From positions 62,001-126,000 of the forward strand of contig NZ_SMCQ01000002.1 of NCBI RefSeq assembly GCF_004343035.1: 64,000 nucleotides of DNA. Direction: 5' to 3'. The stretch is from Longibaculum muris (GTDB taxonomy: Bacteria > Bacillota_I > Bacilli_A > Erysipelotrichales > Coprobacillaceae). Under the pieces are notes generated by a model that saw only the letters and a list, made by a program, of their open reading frames with translations, was not told the DNA's origin and did no database searches. The position numbers were made by a program, and so were the translations under genes. Of this stretch, positions 3,614 to 44,434 are shown piece after piece. Positions within the stretch are counted from its first letter, which is position 1. Each line of letters begins with the position of its first letter.

Positions 3614-4403
3614 GTTTTTGCCCTCCTTCATCATCAGATTTAAACCAATTCAATTCATTAACAAGAGAAGCTCTTAACTCCTTAGTAGGAATTTTTTTAA
3701 GTTCCCCATTCATCGCAAATGAAATGGTTCCGGTTTCTTCACTAACAACAACGGTTAATGAATCTGTTATCTCACTAATCCCAATCGCAGCTCGATGACG
3801 AGCCCCATACTTAGGGCTTAATTCTTTATTTGTTGGTGGGTAAAATGCAGCCGCACAAACAACCCGATCCCCTTGAATAATCGTTGCCCCATCATGTAAA
3901 GGTGTTCCTTCCCAAAAGATGGTTAAAAAAAGTTCACTTTTAATATCGGCATTTATACGCGTACCGGTATTGATATAATCTAAAAGTGATTGGGTTCTTT
4001 CAAATGTAATCAAAGCTCCAGTTTGTTCTTTAGATAAAGTTGTAATCGCACTAACCAACTCATCCATTAATCTTTCTTTTTCATCATCACTGATTTCTTT
4101 TTTTAAGGTCATCTTCGTTTGACCCATTTTTTCAAGTAAGGTTCTAATTTCTGGTTGAAAGATAATAATAATTGCTAAAACACCCCAATTGATAATACTT
4201 TCTACCAAATAATTTAAAGTTGTTAAACCAAGTAAACTCGTTAAAAGTTTAACAATTAAAATAAAAAGAACTCCTTTAAATAATTGCATTGTTTTGACAT
4301 TTGTTTTAAACATTGATATCAAATAATACAAAATAAACCAAACTGCAATTAAATCTATTGAACCTCTAATAAAGTTAACAATATCACTCCAGTTAACAAT
4401 CAC
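3603..4403 (-). CDS. cdaA: Membrane diadenylate cyclase
   Basis: Makes c-di-AMP from two ATP; 266 aa, typical of CdaA/DacA. About three membrane helices occupy the first 80 residues, followed by the DAC domain with the DGA motif (residues 171-173, in LHDGATII) and the RHR motif (202-204, in GARHRAAIG), both required for catalysis. The likely start is the GTG at 4403, six bases after an AGGTGA site; a TTG two codons earlier stands too close to it. First gene of the cdaA-cdaR-glmM operon. c-di-AMP controls potassium and osmolyte transport and wall homeostasis in Firmicutes. Confidence 0.95.
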   Translation of the reverse strand: MIVNWSDIVNFIRGSIDLIAVWFILYYLISMFKTNVKTMQLFKGVLFILIVKLLTSLLGLTTLNYLVESIINWGVLAIIIIFQPEIRTLLEKMGQTKMTLKKEISDDEKERLMDELVSAITTLSKEQTGALITFERTQSLLDYINTGTRINADIKSELFLTIFWEGTPLHDGATIIQGDRVVCAAAFYPPTNKELSPKYGARHRAAIGISEITDSLTVVVSEETGTISFAMNGELKKIPTKELRASLVNELNWFKSDDEGGQKHES

Positions 4404-5331: not shown

Positions 5332-6966
5332 TTATTTTAAAACAGCACCTGTTTTGGCTGATTGAACAAGTTTTGCATAACGTCCTAATAATCCTTTTTC
5401 AGCAACTCTAACTAATGGTTTAAAATTCGCACGACGTTTTTCTAATTCTTCATCACTGATTTGTAAATGAATCATATTTTGATTCAAATCCACATGAATA
5501 ATATCACCATCTTCAACCAACGCTATAGTTCCCCCAACAGCTGCTTCTGGACAAAGATAACCAATGCTTAATCCACCACTGGCTCCAGAAAAACGACCAT
5601 CTGTAATAATTCCACAATGTGCAATACCTTTCATAATCTCAGTAATACGGTGTAATTCTTTCATACCTGGCCCACCTTGAGGACCTTCATAACGTACAAT
5701 CAGAGCAGTGCCTTCTTGAATTTCATGACGATGAAAAGCTTCATAACATTCATCTTCACTATTAAACACTCTGGCTTTTCCCGTAAAGACATGTAAATCT
5801 TTAGGAACAGCACTGGTTTTGACCAATGCCCCTTCTGGAGCTAGGTTACCATATAATACTTGAATTCCATTCGTAATAGATTGTTCATCATCCATAGTAC
5901 GAATAATCTCACGATTTATCTCTATCTTGCGATTTAGATTTTCTGCTAATGTCTTACCTGTACAAGTCATGACATCTTTTTGTAAAGTAGATTCAATGGT
6001 TTTGAGGATAGCTGGAACTCCCCCAGCCTGATATAAATCAACACAAGTTAAATTTCCATTAGGAACAATATTACATATAACTGGGACTTGTGAAGTGATA
6101 TGAGCAATTTCTTCCCAAGTAACTTCTAAACCTAATTCATGAGCAAGGGCAGGTAAATGAATTAAGGCATTTAATGATCCCCCGATTGCACTTAATAATT
6201 TAATTGTATTATTGAGTGCCTCTTGACTCATAATATCAGATGGCTTAATATTCTTTTCTACCAATTCCATTAAACGAATACCACTTTCTCTTGCACTAAA
6301 GCGACGCATACTGGTACTTGATGGATATAAGGCCCCATTGGGCAACATCATTCCTAATCCTTCACATAAACAGCCCATTGTATTGGCAGTTCCTAAAAAT
6401 GGACAAACCCCAGGACCTGTATAATATTTTAAAGTTCCTTCAATAACTTCACGTTCAGTCGCTTCACCACGTAAGAATCTTTGTCTTAATTCTTTAGACT
6501 CATTAGGCTTAATTTCAGCATAACATGGTCCCGCTGTAACAATGATGGAAGGTAAATTAATTCTTGCGGCAGCATTTAACATACCAGGAATAATCTTATC
6601 ACAGCTTGCTAAATAAACAACTCCATCAAAAACCCCTTCACCAACAATCATAGCTTCACATGAATCCGTTATAATATCACGATGTGGCAAACAATAACGC
6701 ATACCAGGATGACCTTGAGCAATCCCATCACACATAGCAATAGTATTAAACTCAATAGGTTCACCACCAGCTTCTAAAATTCCTTTTTTTACTTCCTCAG
6801 CCAATTTTTTCAAAGGTTCATGGCCTGGACAAACTTCATTCCAACTATTCGCAATTGCAATCAATGGTCTTGATTCTAAAGCATCAATAGATACTCCCGC
6901 ACTTGCCAAATGTGCTTTTGAAATAGCACGTTGAAATGGTTCTAAACGATCAATAGCTCTTTCCAT
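5332..6966 (-). CDS. IlvD/Edd-family dehydratase (sugar-acid type inferred)
   Basis: Iron-sulfur dehydratase of the dihydroxy-acid / phosphogluconate dehydratase family, 544 aa. Typical segments are NSWNEVCPGH (C46), MCDGIAQGHPGM (C79), ASCDKIIPG (C122), VCPFLGTANTMGC (C188) and TDGRFSG near the C-terminus. C122 and C188 correspond to cluster ligands of the family. In isolation it would be called IlvD. However, no branched-chain amino-acid genes are nearby, and the gene is in one tight unit with a galactitol-type PTS and a KDPG-aldolase homologue. I therefore infer that it dehydrates a phosphorylated aldonic acid (6-phosphogluconate or an epimer) to the 2-keto-3-deoxy phosphate. A GGAGGAAAG site precedes the ATG; 11 bases separate it from the EIIC gene. 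Confidence 0.85.
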   Translation of the reverse strand: MERAIDRLEPFQRAISKAHLASAGVSIDALESRPLIAIANSWNEVCPGHEPLKKLAEEVKKGILEAGGEPIEFNTIAMCDGIAQGHPGMRYCLPHRDIITDSCEAMIVGEGVFDGVVYLASCDKIIPGMLNAAARINLPSIIVTAGPCYAEIKPNESKELRQRFLRGEATEREVIEGTLKYYTGPGVCPFLGTANTMGCLCEGLGMMLPNGALYPSSTSMRRFSARESGIRLMELVEKNIKPSDIMSQEALNNTIKLLSAIGGSLNALIHLPALAHELGLEVTWEEIAHITSQVPVICNIVPNGNLTCVDLYQAGGVPAILKTIESTLQKDVMTCTGKTLAENLNRKIEINREIIRTMDDEQSITNGIQVLYGNLAPEGALVKTSAVPKDLHVFTGKARVFNSEDECYEAFHRHEIQEGTALIVRYEGPQGGPGMKELHRITEIMKGIAHCGIITDGRFSGASGGLSIGYLCPEAAVGGTIALVEDGDIIHVDLNQNMIHLQISDEELEKRRANFKPLVRVAEKGLLGRYAKLVQSAKTGAVLK

Positions 6967-6977
6967 AATCTTTCCTC

Positions 6978-8357
6978 CTACATGTCTTCTTCACATTCTC
7001 CAGCATATTCTTCAATTTTCTTTTTACCAACAACTTTTTCGACAAAGAACCAAACAGCAATGAAAACAATAATTAAGAGTGGAACAAAGACAATTGGATT
7101 AGATACAAAGCTTTCAAAGACTAAGAAACTTTGTGTTAAAGATGTACCAGCAAATGATGTAATTAAACCATCAAATTTCAAACCAGTTGATAATGCTAAA
7201 CCTGTTAAAGCATGAGTTGTTAAAGTTCCAGCATATAAGATAGCTGCCATTTGAACAATCCCAATCAATAAACTTCTAAACAAATTACCTCTTGTAACAG
7301 CAACAATCATCGCAACCCTAAAAGTAATAACCGCTAAATCAGCAAATGGTAAAACACGATTTCCTGGTAAGATAGCTGCTAAAGCAATTGTAATTGGGGT
7401 TAAGATTAAAGCAGTTGTAATAACATTTTGATTACCAACAATAACTGCTGAATCTAAACCAATGTATAATTTTCTACCTTTGAATTTTTCAGAAGTAAAC
7501 TTCTTAGCAGCTTCAGAAATAGGCATTAAACCTTCCATAAATAAAGAAGTCATCTTAGGAATTAAAACCATAACTGCAGCCATATTGACACCTAAATTTA
7601 AGATAGCTGCTAAATCATAACGCGCTAACAATCCTAAAATACATCCTAAAATCAAACCTAACATGATTGGTTCACCAAAGAACCCTAAATATTTTCTTGC
7701 ACTTTTAATATCAAAATTAATTTTATTAACCCCTGGAATATGATCAATGACCCAATTCAATGGAGCGGCAATAATCAATGATGAAACTGAAGATACAGTT
7801 GGCAAAGAAACATCTGGAATCCCAAAATAATGTTCAACAAATGGAGCTGACCAATCTGATAACTTAAAGGTAATAATTGCCATAATACCTGAAGCTAACA
7901 AACCTAAAGCAACATTTTCAGTTACAAAGTAAACTAAGATACCAACAATTGCCATATGATGATAATTCCAAATATCAACATCCATTGTATCTGTTAACTT
8001 TAAAATTAACATAATAATATTAATCGCTAAAATTTCAAAAATGATGAAGGCAATAATTGGTGAAGCCCATGTAACTGAAGCAATAGCACCCCATCCAACA
8101 TCAGTAACATTTAAATTAATCCCAAAATTAGTAACCATTGCCTGAGCAGCAGGTCCAATATTTGTTTTCAATAAATTAACAACTAAATTGATACCAGCAA
8201 AACCAATCGCAATTGTTAAACCAGCTTTAAATGATTTTGATAACTTGACTCTAAAAACTAATCCAATAATTGTAATAATAACTGGTAACATAACCAATGA
8301 TCCAGCATTTAAGAAAAACTGAAAGCCTTGGTATATTGCATCAAAAAAACTATTCAT
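6978..8357 (-). CDS. PTS EIIC, galactitol (Gat) family
   Basis: Membrane channel of a phosphotransferase sugar transporter, 459 aa with about ten to twelve hydrophobic segments. The GatC-like landmarks include the GEPIMLGLILGCILG stretch and GLDSAVIVGNQNVI. The Gat family carries galactitol, arabitol and in some cases other polyols or sugar acids. The dehydratase and aldolase in the same operon suggest an aldonate-like substrate here. It has its own AAAGGAG site and lies between the dehydratase and EIIB genes; all genes of the cluster are co-directional with gaps of 3 to 18 bases. Confidence 0.93.
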   Translation of the reverse strand: MNSFFDAIYQGFQFFLNAGSLVMLPVIITIIGLVFRVKLSKSFKAGLTIAIGFAGINLVVNLLKTNIGPAAQAMVTNFGINLNVTDVGWGAIASVTWASPIIAFIIFEILAINIIMLILKLTDTMDVDIWNYHHMAIVGILVYFVTENVALGLLASGIMAIITFKLSDWSAPFVEHYFGIPDVSLPTVSSVSSLIIAAPLNWVIDHIPGVNKINFDIKSARKYLGFFGEPIMLGLILGCILGLLARYDLAAILNLGVNMAAVMVLIPKMTSLFMEGLMPISEAAKKFTSEKFKGRKLYIGLDSAVIVGNQNVITTALILTPITIALAAILPGNRVLPFADLAVITFRVAMIVAVTRGNLFRSLLIGIVQMAAILYAGTLTTHALTGLALSTGLKFDGLITSFAGTSLTQSFLVFESFVSNPIVFVPLLIIVFIAVWFFVEKVVGKKKIEEYAGECEEDM

Positions 8358-42031: not shown

Positions 42032-42403
42032 CTTTTTTCACACCCTCTTAACTTCATCATACACAATTTCTAATCAGAACGCAAAAAAACTTGTTTAAAA
42101 ACATTTCTTTCTTATCTTTTCAATTACTCACTTATTTCAAACATAATACCTTAATATTTTCATTTATTCATTGAATGATGACAATAAAGCAACCTTTTTG
42201 CCTATATTTATATCTATAAAATTCCTATATTATTTATATATATGAATTGCATTATAAAAAAACACTTTTTAATACCACAATAACAAATTCATTGAACAAA
42301 ACTAAATAGTTATTATATTGCCCATAAAGCATTTTACTATATAATTAATAATGTATTATAATATTACTTATTAATAGTCAAAATAAACTTAAGGAGAAAT
42401 AAC
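42032..42403. other. AT-rich gap of about 370 bases
   Basis: No gene seen. The right end carries the promoter of the first small-protein cassette. Confidence 0.5.
42318..42345 (+). promoter_or_regulatory. Promoter of cassette gene 1
   Basis: TTGCCC and TATAAT separated by 16 bases, 58 bases before the ATG. Confidence 0.6.
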
Positions 42404-42805
42404 ATGAAAAAGAAAATCACTAAAGAAGAATATTATTTACAAAATGAAGAAAAGGTTAACCAATTATTAGATATCTTTGAATTAGAAAACCTTACATTTG
42501 ATGAAAAAATTGCCCTTTTATTACCTTTGATTGATTCAACGATAGATAATTTTTTTACTCCTCCACTTTTAAAAATGCCTAATGAAATTTCTAGTAGAGT
42601 TGAGTTACACTATCATAGTAGAATTTTGTTAGTTCTATTAAAATATATTTTAGAATCGAATAGTAAATTAGATTATTTAAAAAACATAGATAAACAAAAT
42701 AAAGAACTAATAAGTCAAAACGAACAAATCATTGAGCAGAACAATAAAACTGTTGAACAACACCAACAAATTATTGATTTACTAAAAGAAATTAAAGATA
42801 AGTAA
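42404..42805 (+). CDS. Cassette protein 1: small protein with Gln/Asn-rich coiled-coil tail
   Basis: 133 aa, family unknown to me. N-terminal part with NEEKVNQLLDIFELENLT and EKIALLLPLIDS, a middle amphipathic region, then from about residue 95 a heptad-like tail (NEQIIEQNNKTVEQHQQIID) ending LLKEIKDK. The tail recurs in the two next genes, and the LENL...EK...IDS block also has a counterpart in the third, so the three are paralogs. AAGGAG site, own promoter and terminator. Soluble, likely oligomeric through the coiled coil. Confidence 0.75.
   Translation: MKKKITKEEYYLQNEEKVNQLLDIFELENLTFDEKIALLLPLIDSTIDNFFTPPLLKMPNEISSRVELHYHSRILLVLLKYILESNSKLDYLKNIDKQNKELISQNEQIIEQNNKTVEQHQQIIDLLKEIKDK
42725..42748 (+). 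repeat. 24-bp repeat shared by cassette genes 1 and 2, copy 1
   Basis: Identical to 43125-43148. It starts CAAATCATTGAGCAG and encodes part of the coiled-coil tail. Identity at DNA level points to recent duplication or gene conversion. Confidence 0.85.
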
Positions 42806-42806
42806 G

Positions 42807-42826
42807 CACCACACAAGTGGTGTTTT
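42807..42826 (+). terminator. Terminator of cassette gene 1
   Basis: CACCAC-ACAA-GTGGTG followed by TTTT, two bases after the stop codon. Confidence 0.8.
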
Positions 42827-42841
42827 CTATATGTTATTTTA

Positions 42842-42894
42842 TTGTATATATTTTTCTTATAGGATATAATTATTCTATAAGAAAGCGAGGAATT
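42842..42894 (+). promoter_or_regulatory. Promoter and conserved leader of cassette gene 2
   Basis: TTGTAT (42842-42847) and TATAAT (42865-42870) with a 17-base spacer. From about +1, a 19-base leader (42876-42894; TATAAGAAAGCGAGGAATT) is identical to the leader of gene 3 and contains the ribosome site. Confidence 0.75.
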
Positions 42895-42899
42895 TAAAG

Positions 42900-43184
42900 A
42901 TGATCGAACAAAATAATGATATGGAAAATATGATTAGGGAATACGGTTTGGAAAAACTAGATGAAAGTGATCAAATAGCTGTTTTTAGAATGTACAAAAA
43001 TTTAAAAGATTATAAAAAAAATGAAAAAGTTGCATATACTATAGACACAATTTATAACGCTGCTTGCTATACACAAAATTATCTACTTTTAAAACAACTC
43101 CTTAATTTTCAAGAACAAAACAATCAAATCATTGAGCAGAACAATAAAGTTATTGAGTTACTTACTGAAATAAAAAACAAATAA
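42900..43184 (+). CDS. Cassette protein 2: small protein with Gln/Asn-rich coiled-coil tail
   Basis: 94 aa, paralog of its neighbours. GLEKLDESDQIAVFRMYKNL corresponds to GLENLDDIEKDAIKEMFDS in protein 3; both then have YTQN, a LL-containing stretch, EQNNQIIEQ or EQNQQIIEL, and end in LLTEIKNK. No signal peptide or membrane helix. GAGGA site eight bases before the ATG. I see no terminator directly after it. Confidence 0.75.
   Translation: MIEQNNDMENMIREYGLEKLDESDQIAVFRMYKNLKDYKKNEKVAYTIDTIYNAACYTQNYLLLKQLLNFQEQNNQIIEQNNKVIELLTEIKNK
43125..43148 (+). repeat. 24-bp repeat shared by cassette genes 1 and 2, copy 2
   Basis: Exact copy of 42725-42748 within the tail-coding part of gene 2. Confidence 0.85.
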
Positions 43185-43380
43185 GTAGCTCCCATAATTA
43201 TAGTGCTTTATTCTATAAAAATACTTTTTGAAATTTCTTTAATAGTTATAGTGATTATAATAATATTATAGGATAAGCTTAAATAAAGATAAAAATCTGC
43301 TCTATTTTACAATATAATAGACAAATTAAGATATGATTTTTAGGTTTAATATTTTTAAATACATATAGATATTATTTCCA

Positions 43381-43433
43381 TTGTTTTCATTTCTTTTCTC
43401 ATATAAAATAAATATATAAGAAAGCGAGGAATT
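43381..43433 (+). promoter_or_regulatory. Promoter and conserved leader of cassette gene 3
   Basis: TTGTTT (43381-43386) and TAAAAT (43404-43409) with 17 bases between; the leader at 43415-43433 is the same 19 bases as before gene 2. Confidence 0.7.
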
Positions 43434-43436
43434 GTG

Positions 43437-43703
43437 ATGTTTGATAAAAATTTAAGTGAAGAAGAAAAAATTAATTTATTGGGTCTTGAAAATCTAGATG
43501 ATATTGAAAAAGATGCTATTAAAGAAATGTTTGACAGTATTCTTTTAAAAAGCGGTTTTCATAGTATGCGTAATACTAGTAGTGTTACAGCGCCTACTTT
43601 AGCTATGTACACTCAGAATTTTATGATTATTAGACGTCTTTTAGAAATAAAAGAACAAAATCAACAAATTATAGAATTATTGACAGAGATAAAGAATAAG
43701 TAG
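43437..43703 (+). CDS. Cassette protein 3: small protein with Gln/Asn-rich coiled-coil tail
   Basis: 88 aa, paralog of proteins 1 and 2. SEEEKINLLGLENLDDIEKD, then a variable stretch (SGFHSMRNTSSVTAP) not shared with the others, then MYTQNFMIIRRLLEIKEQN, QQIIELLTEIKNK. A GTG lies one codon earlier; the ATG at 43437 is six bases from GAGGA. Own promoter and terminator. Confidence 0.75.
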   Translation: MFDKNLSEEEKINLLGLENLDDIEKDAIKEMFDSILLKSGFHSMRNTSSVTAPTLAMYTQNFMIIRRLLEIKEQNQQIIELLTEIKNK

Positions 43704-43727
43704 AAAACACCACGAATGTGGTGTTTT
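43704..43727. terminator. Bidirectional terminator
   Basis: AAAACACCAC-GAAT-GTGGTGTTTT between cassette gene 3 (+) and the phage-type gene (-). The CACCAC stem is shared with the terminator of gene 1. Confidence 0.88.
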
Positions 43728-43730
43728 ACA

Positions 43731-44434
43731 TTATTCATAACCATTAACAAGAGTATTCATCCAAACCTTTGCCTTGGCTTGTTCCTCCTCAATAGTTAAC
43801 TGTTGGTCTACCTCTTTTTGTTTATCTGTTAATGGGTATGGTTTTGATGGATATGACGTTGCTTGTTGCCCTGATTTTCGGTAAAATACATTATATAGTG
43901 ACGTAGAAATGGCATCATAAACATACATTCCTTGTAACCATAACTGTGAGTTTTTTTGATCTTCTTTCATTTCATAAGCTTGTCTGTAGAACTTTGTTAG
44001 TTCTACATCTTGGAGATAGAATTCATCATAACTCATACCAATAAATAAATAAAAGGGAAAGACTTCTTTAAATATTTGTGTATAAGTTTTGTTGGAAAGT
44101 GAATTTTTGGTGTCTAAAAACTCGCTTTCCAGCTGATTGCGTTTTTTGAGGAGTCCTCCTCAAATAAAGTATTGAGAGTATCAGTAGCCATTTCAGATAA
44201 CTTGTTGTACATCTCATTTTTATTTGTGAATAAGTGGAAGATTTCTTCAACTTCTGCTTTTTTAATACGTTTATGATGAGCATAGAAAGCATATTCAAAA
44301 AGTTTTGGTAAAATTGTGACAGGTTTTTTATTCATGTCAGCTAAGACAATACCATCAACTCCGATTTTCTCTAATGTTTTTCTTGTATACTCTAATATAT
44401 AATCAACATCATTTCTATAGAAATATAGACACAT
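43731..44434 (-). CDS. Orphan phage tail-assembly chaperone (gpG/gpGT type) with -1 frameshift
   Basis: Two overlapping frames. The zero frame (44434 to 44114, 106 aa) holds NKKPVTILPKLFEYAFYAHHK, typical of siphophage tail chaperones. The second (down to 43731) is open well upstream of its first ATG and holds FPFYLFIGMSYDEFYLQD and LWLQGMYVYDAI, typical of the T extension. They join by a -1 shift at AAAAAAC (44141-44147), giving about 233 aa; in phages both forms chaperone the tape-measure protein. No other tail gene is present, so this is a leftover of a prophage whose frameshift apparatus is still intact. The first residues (MCLYFYRND) are atypical, so the start may be damaged. Confidence 0.72.
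44141..44161 (-). other. -1 ribosomal frameshift site with upstream SD-like stimulator
   Basis: On the minus strand the slippery heptamer A-AAA-AAC is in the correct phase (codons TCA AAA AAC). GAGGAGG lies seven bases upstream (44155-44161), similar to the anti-SD stimulator of dnaX frameshifting. Confidence 0.7.

Follow-up and report, generated by a model that had tools for sequence, protein, structure and literature searches.

Three small tandem genes in the window (the whole 64,000-nucleotide stretch of Longibaculum muris DNA analyzed here) are, judging from their sequence context, very probably cargo of a phage-tail element. Their products form a protein family not described before, although its niche is of a known kind; what is new is the cargo slot in tailocin-like elements. 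The initial annotation had recognized the three genes, and they are real, with all three open reading frames intact on the plus strand. P1 (42404-42805; 133 aa) has a frame-broken orthologue in the related locus L029, at the tape-measure end of the array there. P2 (42900-43184) encodes 94 aa, and P3 (43437-43703) encodes 88 aa; a GTG start listed for P3 at 43434 is one codon upstream. These are the only cassette copies in the whole genome.

How are the three related to one another? P2 and P3 align over their full length with 40% identity (E 1.7e-8) and are thus homologous beyond chance. A single-sequence search with P1 finds only the tails of P2 and P3, at E 0.1-0.4; P1 is linked to the family through relatives, matching an L060 copy with a phmmer E value of 1.4e-9. 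Its match to the family profile (E 1.3e-18) comes from an alignment that included P1 itself. As claimed at the outset, the proteins share an N-terminal motif (LENL, LEKL, and LENL in P1, P2, and P3) and coiled-coil tails and have unlike middles. Two exact repeats were also borne out, both on the plus strand: 24 bases, CAAATCATTGAGCAGAACAATAAA, in the tails of P1 (42725..42748) and P2 (43125..43148), and a 19-base leader, TATAAGAAAGCGAGGAATT, at 42876..42894, where it includes the P2 ribosome-binding site, and at 43415..43433, where it precedes P3.

The cassettes had been described as sitting beside a prophage relic. This is wrong: blastn places them inside a phage-derived relic, of which they make up most. 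DNA homology to phage-tail elements (L029, L028, L027, L060, and L204) extends over 42158..44413, firm from 42393 and weak at 42158-42243. The N-terminal half of P3 is nearest to cassette L028b, and its tail and flank are continuous with L027 and L029. The relic also includes two tail-chaperone genes (43731-44434) on the strand opposite to the cassettes. One is a gpGT-like remnant (43731..44036, minus strand) that is 133 aa long in relatives and 101 aa here from the first usual start. The other, a gpG-like gene (44114..44434, minus strand), has had its first codons replaced, and the homology stops inside it at 44413; the window's genome has no second copy. It matches the Pfam family DUF5055 (PF16478), and chaperone roles for both genes are read from their order beside the tube and tape-measure genes. 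The gpG position of the DUF5055 gene suggests a likely function for the PF16478 family.

In two genomes of another genus of the same family (G032 and G033), the regulator gene and the L,D-transpeptidase gene that flank the relic in the window are near neighbors, with no tail genes between them. What they have there is a gene for a 289-aa lipoprotein (L209 577-1446 and L210 2450-3319), at the place where the window has the tail relic. The complete tail element of both genomes is located elsewhere, beside a DegV-like gene, which makes the window fragment a small piece sitting at a different site. The relic is probably a fragment of a headless tail element with the cassettes within it, and the window's genome retains only the cargo and the two tail-chaperone genes of that parent.

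What did the parent look like? The element of G033, about 16 kb, was read end to end, as was that of G032, which corresponds to Candidatus Stoquefichus massiliensis AP9 and whose cassettes are the same as those of L024. Both have the same gene order: repressor, M78/DUF955 protease, possible activator, tail terminator, tube, gpG, gpGT, cargo, and tape measure, followed by distal tail, tip, fibers, holin, and lysin; several of these names come from size and order and only some from a Pfam match. The G033 element includes PF06114, PF05105, an NlpC/P60-like lysin, and tail genes. Among all open reading frames of at least 60 to 75 aa in the two elements, no capsid, portal, terminase, integrase, or replication genes were recognized. 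The elements of G034, G037, and G038 have the same layout in the parts read. This is also the layout reported for the Listeria monocins, F-type tailocin clusters which, in the portion of the source available (PMC6872733), have a repressor and DUF955 protease, a tail module with a tape measure, a holin, and an endolysin and, like the parent element, have neither capsid nor integrase. In contrast, cargo between chaperone and tape measure is not described for the monocin in that portion, and the host lineage is another. In its gene content, the parent element resembles a monocin-type F-type tailocin.

Within the same bacterial family, intact elements have the cassettes on the opposite strand between gpGT and the tape measure, and reversed cargo (cassettes or SHOCT-tailed proteins) is present in this slot or its remnant in each of the six family genomes with this tail type. 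Across 34 related tail loci, several of which are the same as or nearly identical to the elements found in the genomes, gpGT and tape measure abut in 25, and cargo, nearly all of it reversed, fills the gap in 7. Cassettes occupy the slot in L055, L056, L057, and L060, with a divergent one in L063; SHOCT proteins occupy it in L056 and L062; and L061 begins with a lipoprotein gene on the tail strand. Two loci, L058 and L059, were ambiguous in this count. In both, a rearrangement has put an activator-like gene directly after gpGT, in the place of the tape measure (L058 1207-1845 and L059 6693-7331). As expected of a moron, the cargo is inserted between conserved genes that in most related loci have nothing at that place.

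The SHOCT-tailed phage proteins (phrog_888) use the same slot with or without cassettes, and they too have a variable body and a short constant C-terminal helix. They differ in length (240-275 aa) and in body, and no sequence relation to P1-P3 was found. A frame-broken gene in L029 (3785-4198) consists of a cassette body and then a SHOCT-like tail, interrupted by a stop, and hints at tail swapping between the two cargo families. The same locus contains a tape-measure open reading frame that terminates in a duplicated piece of gpGT (5476-7212). Past it comes a further partial cassette array (3742-4201), and together they amount to a segmental duplication spanning the slot. In G034 (L205 6065-8267), two coiled-coil paralogues of the L063 type flank a gene for a 268-aa protein in the slot and form a second, divergent tandem set.

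Morons also carry their own promoters and terminators, and here the evidence is good for a conserved P2 promoter and for terminators. The claim that each gene has its own promoter holds for P2, is weak for P3, and for P1 comes down to a consensus match, in a region with 10 promoter-like matches versus 15.5 in shuffles, which is not above background. The P1 site (TTGCCC-16-TATAAT, 42318..42345, plus strand) matches the consensus at 10 of 12 positions, not above that shuffle background. The P2 promoter (TTGTAT-17-TATAAT, 42842..42870, plus strand) has the spacing and flank found upstream of L028a, L027b, and L027c, so that it is kept in both L028 and L027; the common form is ATTGTnn-N17-TATAAT, and the P2 version is ATTGTAT-N17-TATAAT. 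A near-perfect palindrome covers the P2 -10 element (42853..42884), was reached in 0 of 500 shuffles of the P2 leader region, and has a similar counterpart at L028a. From its sequence it is a possible operator.

Terminators stand out more clearly, with 3 terminator-like matches versus 0.1 expected in shuffles. The CACCAC terminators said to be common to two genes are present after P1 (42804..42825, plus strand) and after P3 (43704..43727); the terminator scan found none for P2 itself. The second CACCAC stem lies between the convergent P3 and gpGT genes and probably acts in both directions, to go by its sequence. It is kept after gpGT in L027, L028, L029, L060, and L204, whether the neighbor is a cassette or a SHOCT gene. 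Because this stem could stop transcription from both sides, tail transcription toward the tape measure would need readthrough.

The proposal of duplication and diversification with constant ends and variable centers was right, and DNA alignments show the pattern recurring between independent elements. The leader and N terminus and the tail of P2 and P3 are 76-86% identical in DNA to their closest relatives (blastn), and no DNA match to those relatives was found for their centers. The best matches of all three lie in other elements (P1 with L029, P2 with L029c and L028a, and P3 with L028b), so the cassette set is not recent strain-level diversity. Are the tails simply copied from one gene to the next? 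In L060, the last 36 codons of the paralogues are 92% identical in protein and 0.86 at third positions, against 24-37% protein identity in the body. The P2 and P3 tails, at 64% protein identity, share only 31% of third positions. This low third-codon identity (0.31) argues that they are held by selection, and recent gene conversion or DNA homogenization was rejected for them, in contrast to L060 and L027.

Tail lengths step mostly by seven residues. Measured from a fixed anchor to the last LL, with the anchor matched by eye between the cassette and staphylococcal families, 19 of 22 proteins, among them staphylococcal ones, have a length of 6 modulo 7. The two P1-type tails differ from each other by exactly 14, and L028b is the exception to the rule. 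A model of P2 (pLDDT 81) has two short helices (residues 2-15 and 22-40), a loop, and a 46-residue helix (48-93), with a variable center that extends from the last part of the second helix through the loop into the first part of the third helix. The prediction for each protein is a small helical hairpin containing a variable loop, and after it a constant coiled coil through which the cassette proteins would oligomerize.

That no family had been described holds for Pfam, NCBIfam, PADLOC, and PDB; the sole match is to the nameless phrog_5375. P1, P2, and P3 all match it weakly (E about 1e-4 to 1e-5) through its C-terminal part alone and not over the full-length model. PADLOC likewise had no match for the staphylococcal relative or the slot neighbors, fold searches gave nothing at E 0.001, and no phage or plasmid record matched P2. 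Pfam matches of P1-P3 (BBS2_hp, Sec8_N, Med15_fungi, and others) were below the cut-offs and were taken as coiled-coil noise, as were PDB profile matches to yeast Rif2 (E 0.02-0.05). When 295 genomes of the order were searched with the profile, real members turned up only in G000, G032, and G009; a G205 match within a 1007-aa frame was dismissed. The G009 relative (L008 1429-1800) sits beside a cell-division FtsX-like gene and is broken near a run of A, which could reflect sequencing error, decay, or phase variation. A short Planococcus membrane protein (L025 5998-6144) was set aside as a member since only its tail is similar; that tail (QNDKLIEQNKQVIELLKEIKDK) is very much like those of the cassettes, so the tail type also occurs outside phage elements.

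The phrog_5375 proteins, from 44 Staphylococcus phage records, have a C-terminal module in common with the cassettes (QN[FY]..I..L....QN..IIEQNN..I.LL..I.K, in matching heptad register), bodies that diverge strongly, and a position as mobile-element cargo. Unlike the cassettes, they are 158-189 aa long, have another N-terminal body, and occur as single copies in the lysogeny operon, between repressor (cI) and integrase in the loci read. A model of the staphylococcal protein (pLDDT 67) was too uncertain for comparison. In 80alpha, gp03 occupies the place between repressor and integrase, in agreement with the published account of Tha as lying next to "xis." By this argument from position, the staphylococcal relatives may share a locus with Tha.

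What, then, might the cassettes do? The reading we prefer, at somewhat less than even confidence, is that they are moron-type cargo of a headless tail element, acting by phage exclusion or tail interference; the function itself, argued by analogy, is put forward a shade more tentatively. The parent would be a headless monocin-like F-type tailocin cluster whose cargo holds a fixed slot, lies on the opposite strand, and is served by a promoter of its own and a shared terminator. This arrangement would let the cargo be transcribed with the tail operon off, and switching on that operon would read the cargo antisense. The cassette proteins would be active in the uninduced cell, if they are expressed there, as phage-exclusion or tail-assembly-interfering factors. 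Their constant tail would keep oligomers together or bind a shared partner, and specificity would come from the variable center. It counts against this reading that P1-P3 match no PADLOC model of a known defense protein and that a headless element does not itself face superinfection, so that the host would be the one to benefit.

The proposed function draws on position and on precedents that act through tails: HK97 gp15, Tab, Tha (PMC11087260), and Tai (PMC11364771). HK97 gp15, a superinfection-exclusion moron according to the available text of citing papers, is annotated in the same slot, between the frameshifted tail chaperone and the tape measure, and is likewise an extra small gene with its own terminator. 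Unlike the cassettes, which are likened to it by position alone, it is on the tail-gene strand, is single, and is a predicted inner-membrane protein in Escherichia coli. Tab of Pseudomonas phage JBD26, a small moron product of 83 residues expressed from the prophage, is encoded on the opposite strand inside the late operon with its own promoter (PMC10884400). It differs in lying between the terminase genes and in having an anti-Tab partner, a gene not recognized here, and it too is likened by position alone. The resemblance of the cassettes to the class of HK97 gp15 and Tab is thus one of position and orientation only. Also against the preferred reading, the module shared with the staphylococcal proteins is a coiled coil, in which chance resemblance is easy, the variable center could be a relaxed linker, and the copy in the window may just be in decay.

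Phage exclusion or tail interference nevertheless ranks ahead of the other readings. Next is an unlikely one in which the cassettes are a brake on their own tail, binding gpG/gpGT or the tape measure to block leaky assembly until antisense transcription removes them at induction. In every intact relative, the cassettes lie directly between the chaperone gene and the tape-measure gene and antisense to both, and the relic has retained them together with the chaperones. Such a brake sits poorly with the quite different SHOCT-type proteins that hold the same slot in other elements, with the 25 related tail loci that need nothing there, and with staphylococcal relatives of the tail module that lie far from tail genes. 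Less probable again is that the cassettes are selfish or neutral cargo that does nothing at present and drifts in a slot that tolerates it. Frame-broken copies in L029 (the P1-type copy and one cassette) and the loss of most of the window element would suit it, yet the tails are conserved as protein without DNA conservation, their lengths step by heptads, promoter and leader are conserved, and three intact open reading frames persist in the relic.

Still lower we place producer immunity against the element's own or kindred tailocins. Although tandem diverged copies linked to a tail cluster of monocin layout are what it would predict, no membrane segment or signal was seen in P1-P3, and the cassette genes lie far from the fiber genes. 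The toxin-antitoxin idea raised in the initial annotation, with which abortive infection may be grouped, found nothing specific in its support and is very improbable. These are small genes in a mobile-element setting, and the gene upstream of a staphylococcal relative is annotated "putative toxin component" in one record, while in another the same place holds a gene called a metalloprotease. Against this, all three genes are paralogues with separate leaders, the paired unlike small gene of such systems is absent, and family-model searches with P1-P3 gave no toxin, nuclease, or antitoxin match.

A bolder form of the exclusion reading, to which we give little credence, is a modular exclusion system. 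In it, the constant heptad-repeat tail would join diverged paralogues into homo- or hetero-oligomers, and exchangeable centers would recognize the tail proteins of different phages; the system would be carried by tailocins and temperate phages of the Bacillota and reshuffled through recombination within the constant protein tail.

Overall, a cargo slot has been identified in monocin-like tail clusters of Erysipelotrichaceae, at the place where HK97 carries an exclusion gene, and it is filled by two kinds of undescribed small protein. The combination of gpGT, a CACCAC terminator, and reversed small open reading frames is a marker for finding more such cargo. Should the cassettes prove to act on tails, tail interference would reach Gram-positive tailocins as well, and the cassettes would provide a compact, modular family.
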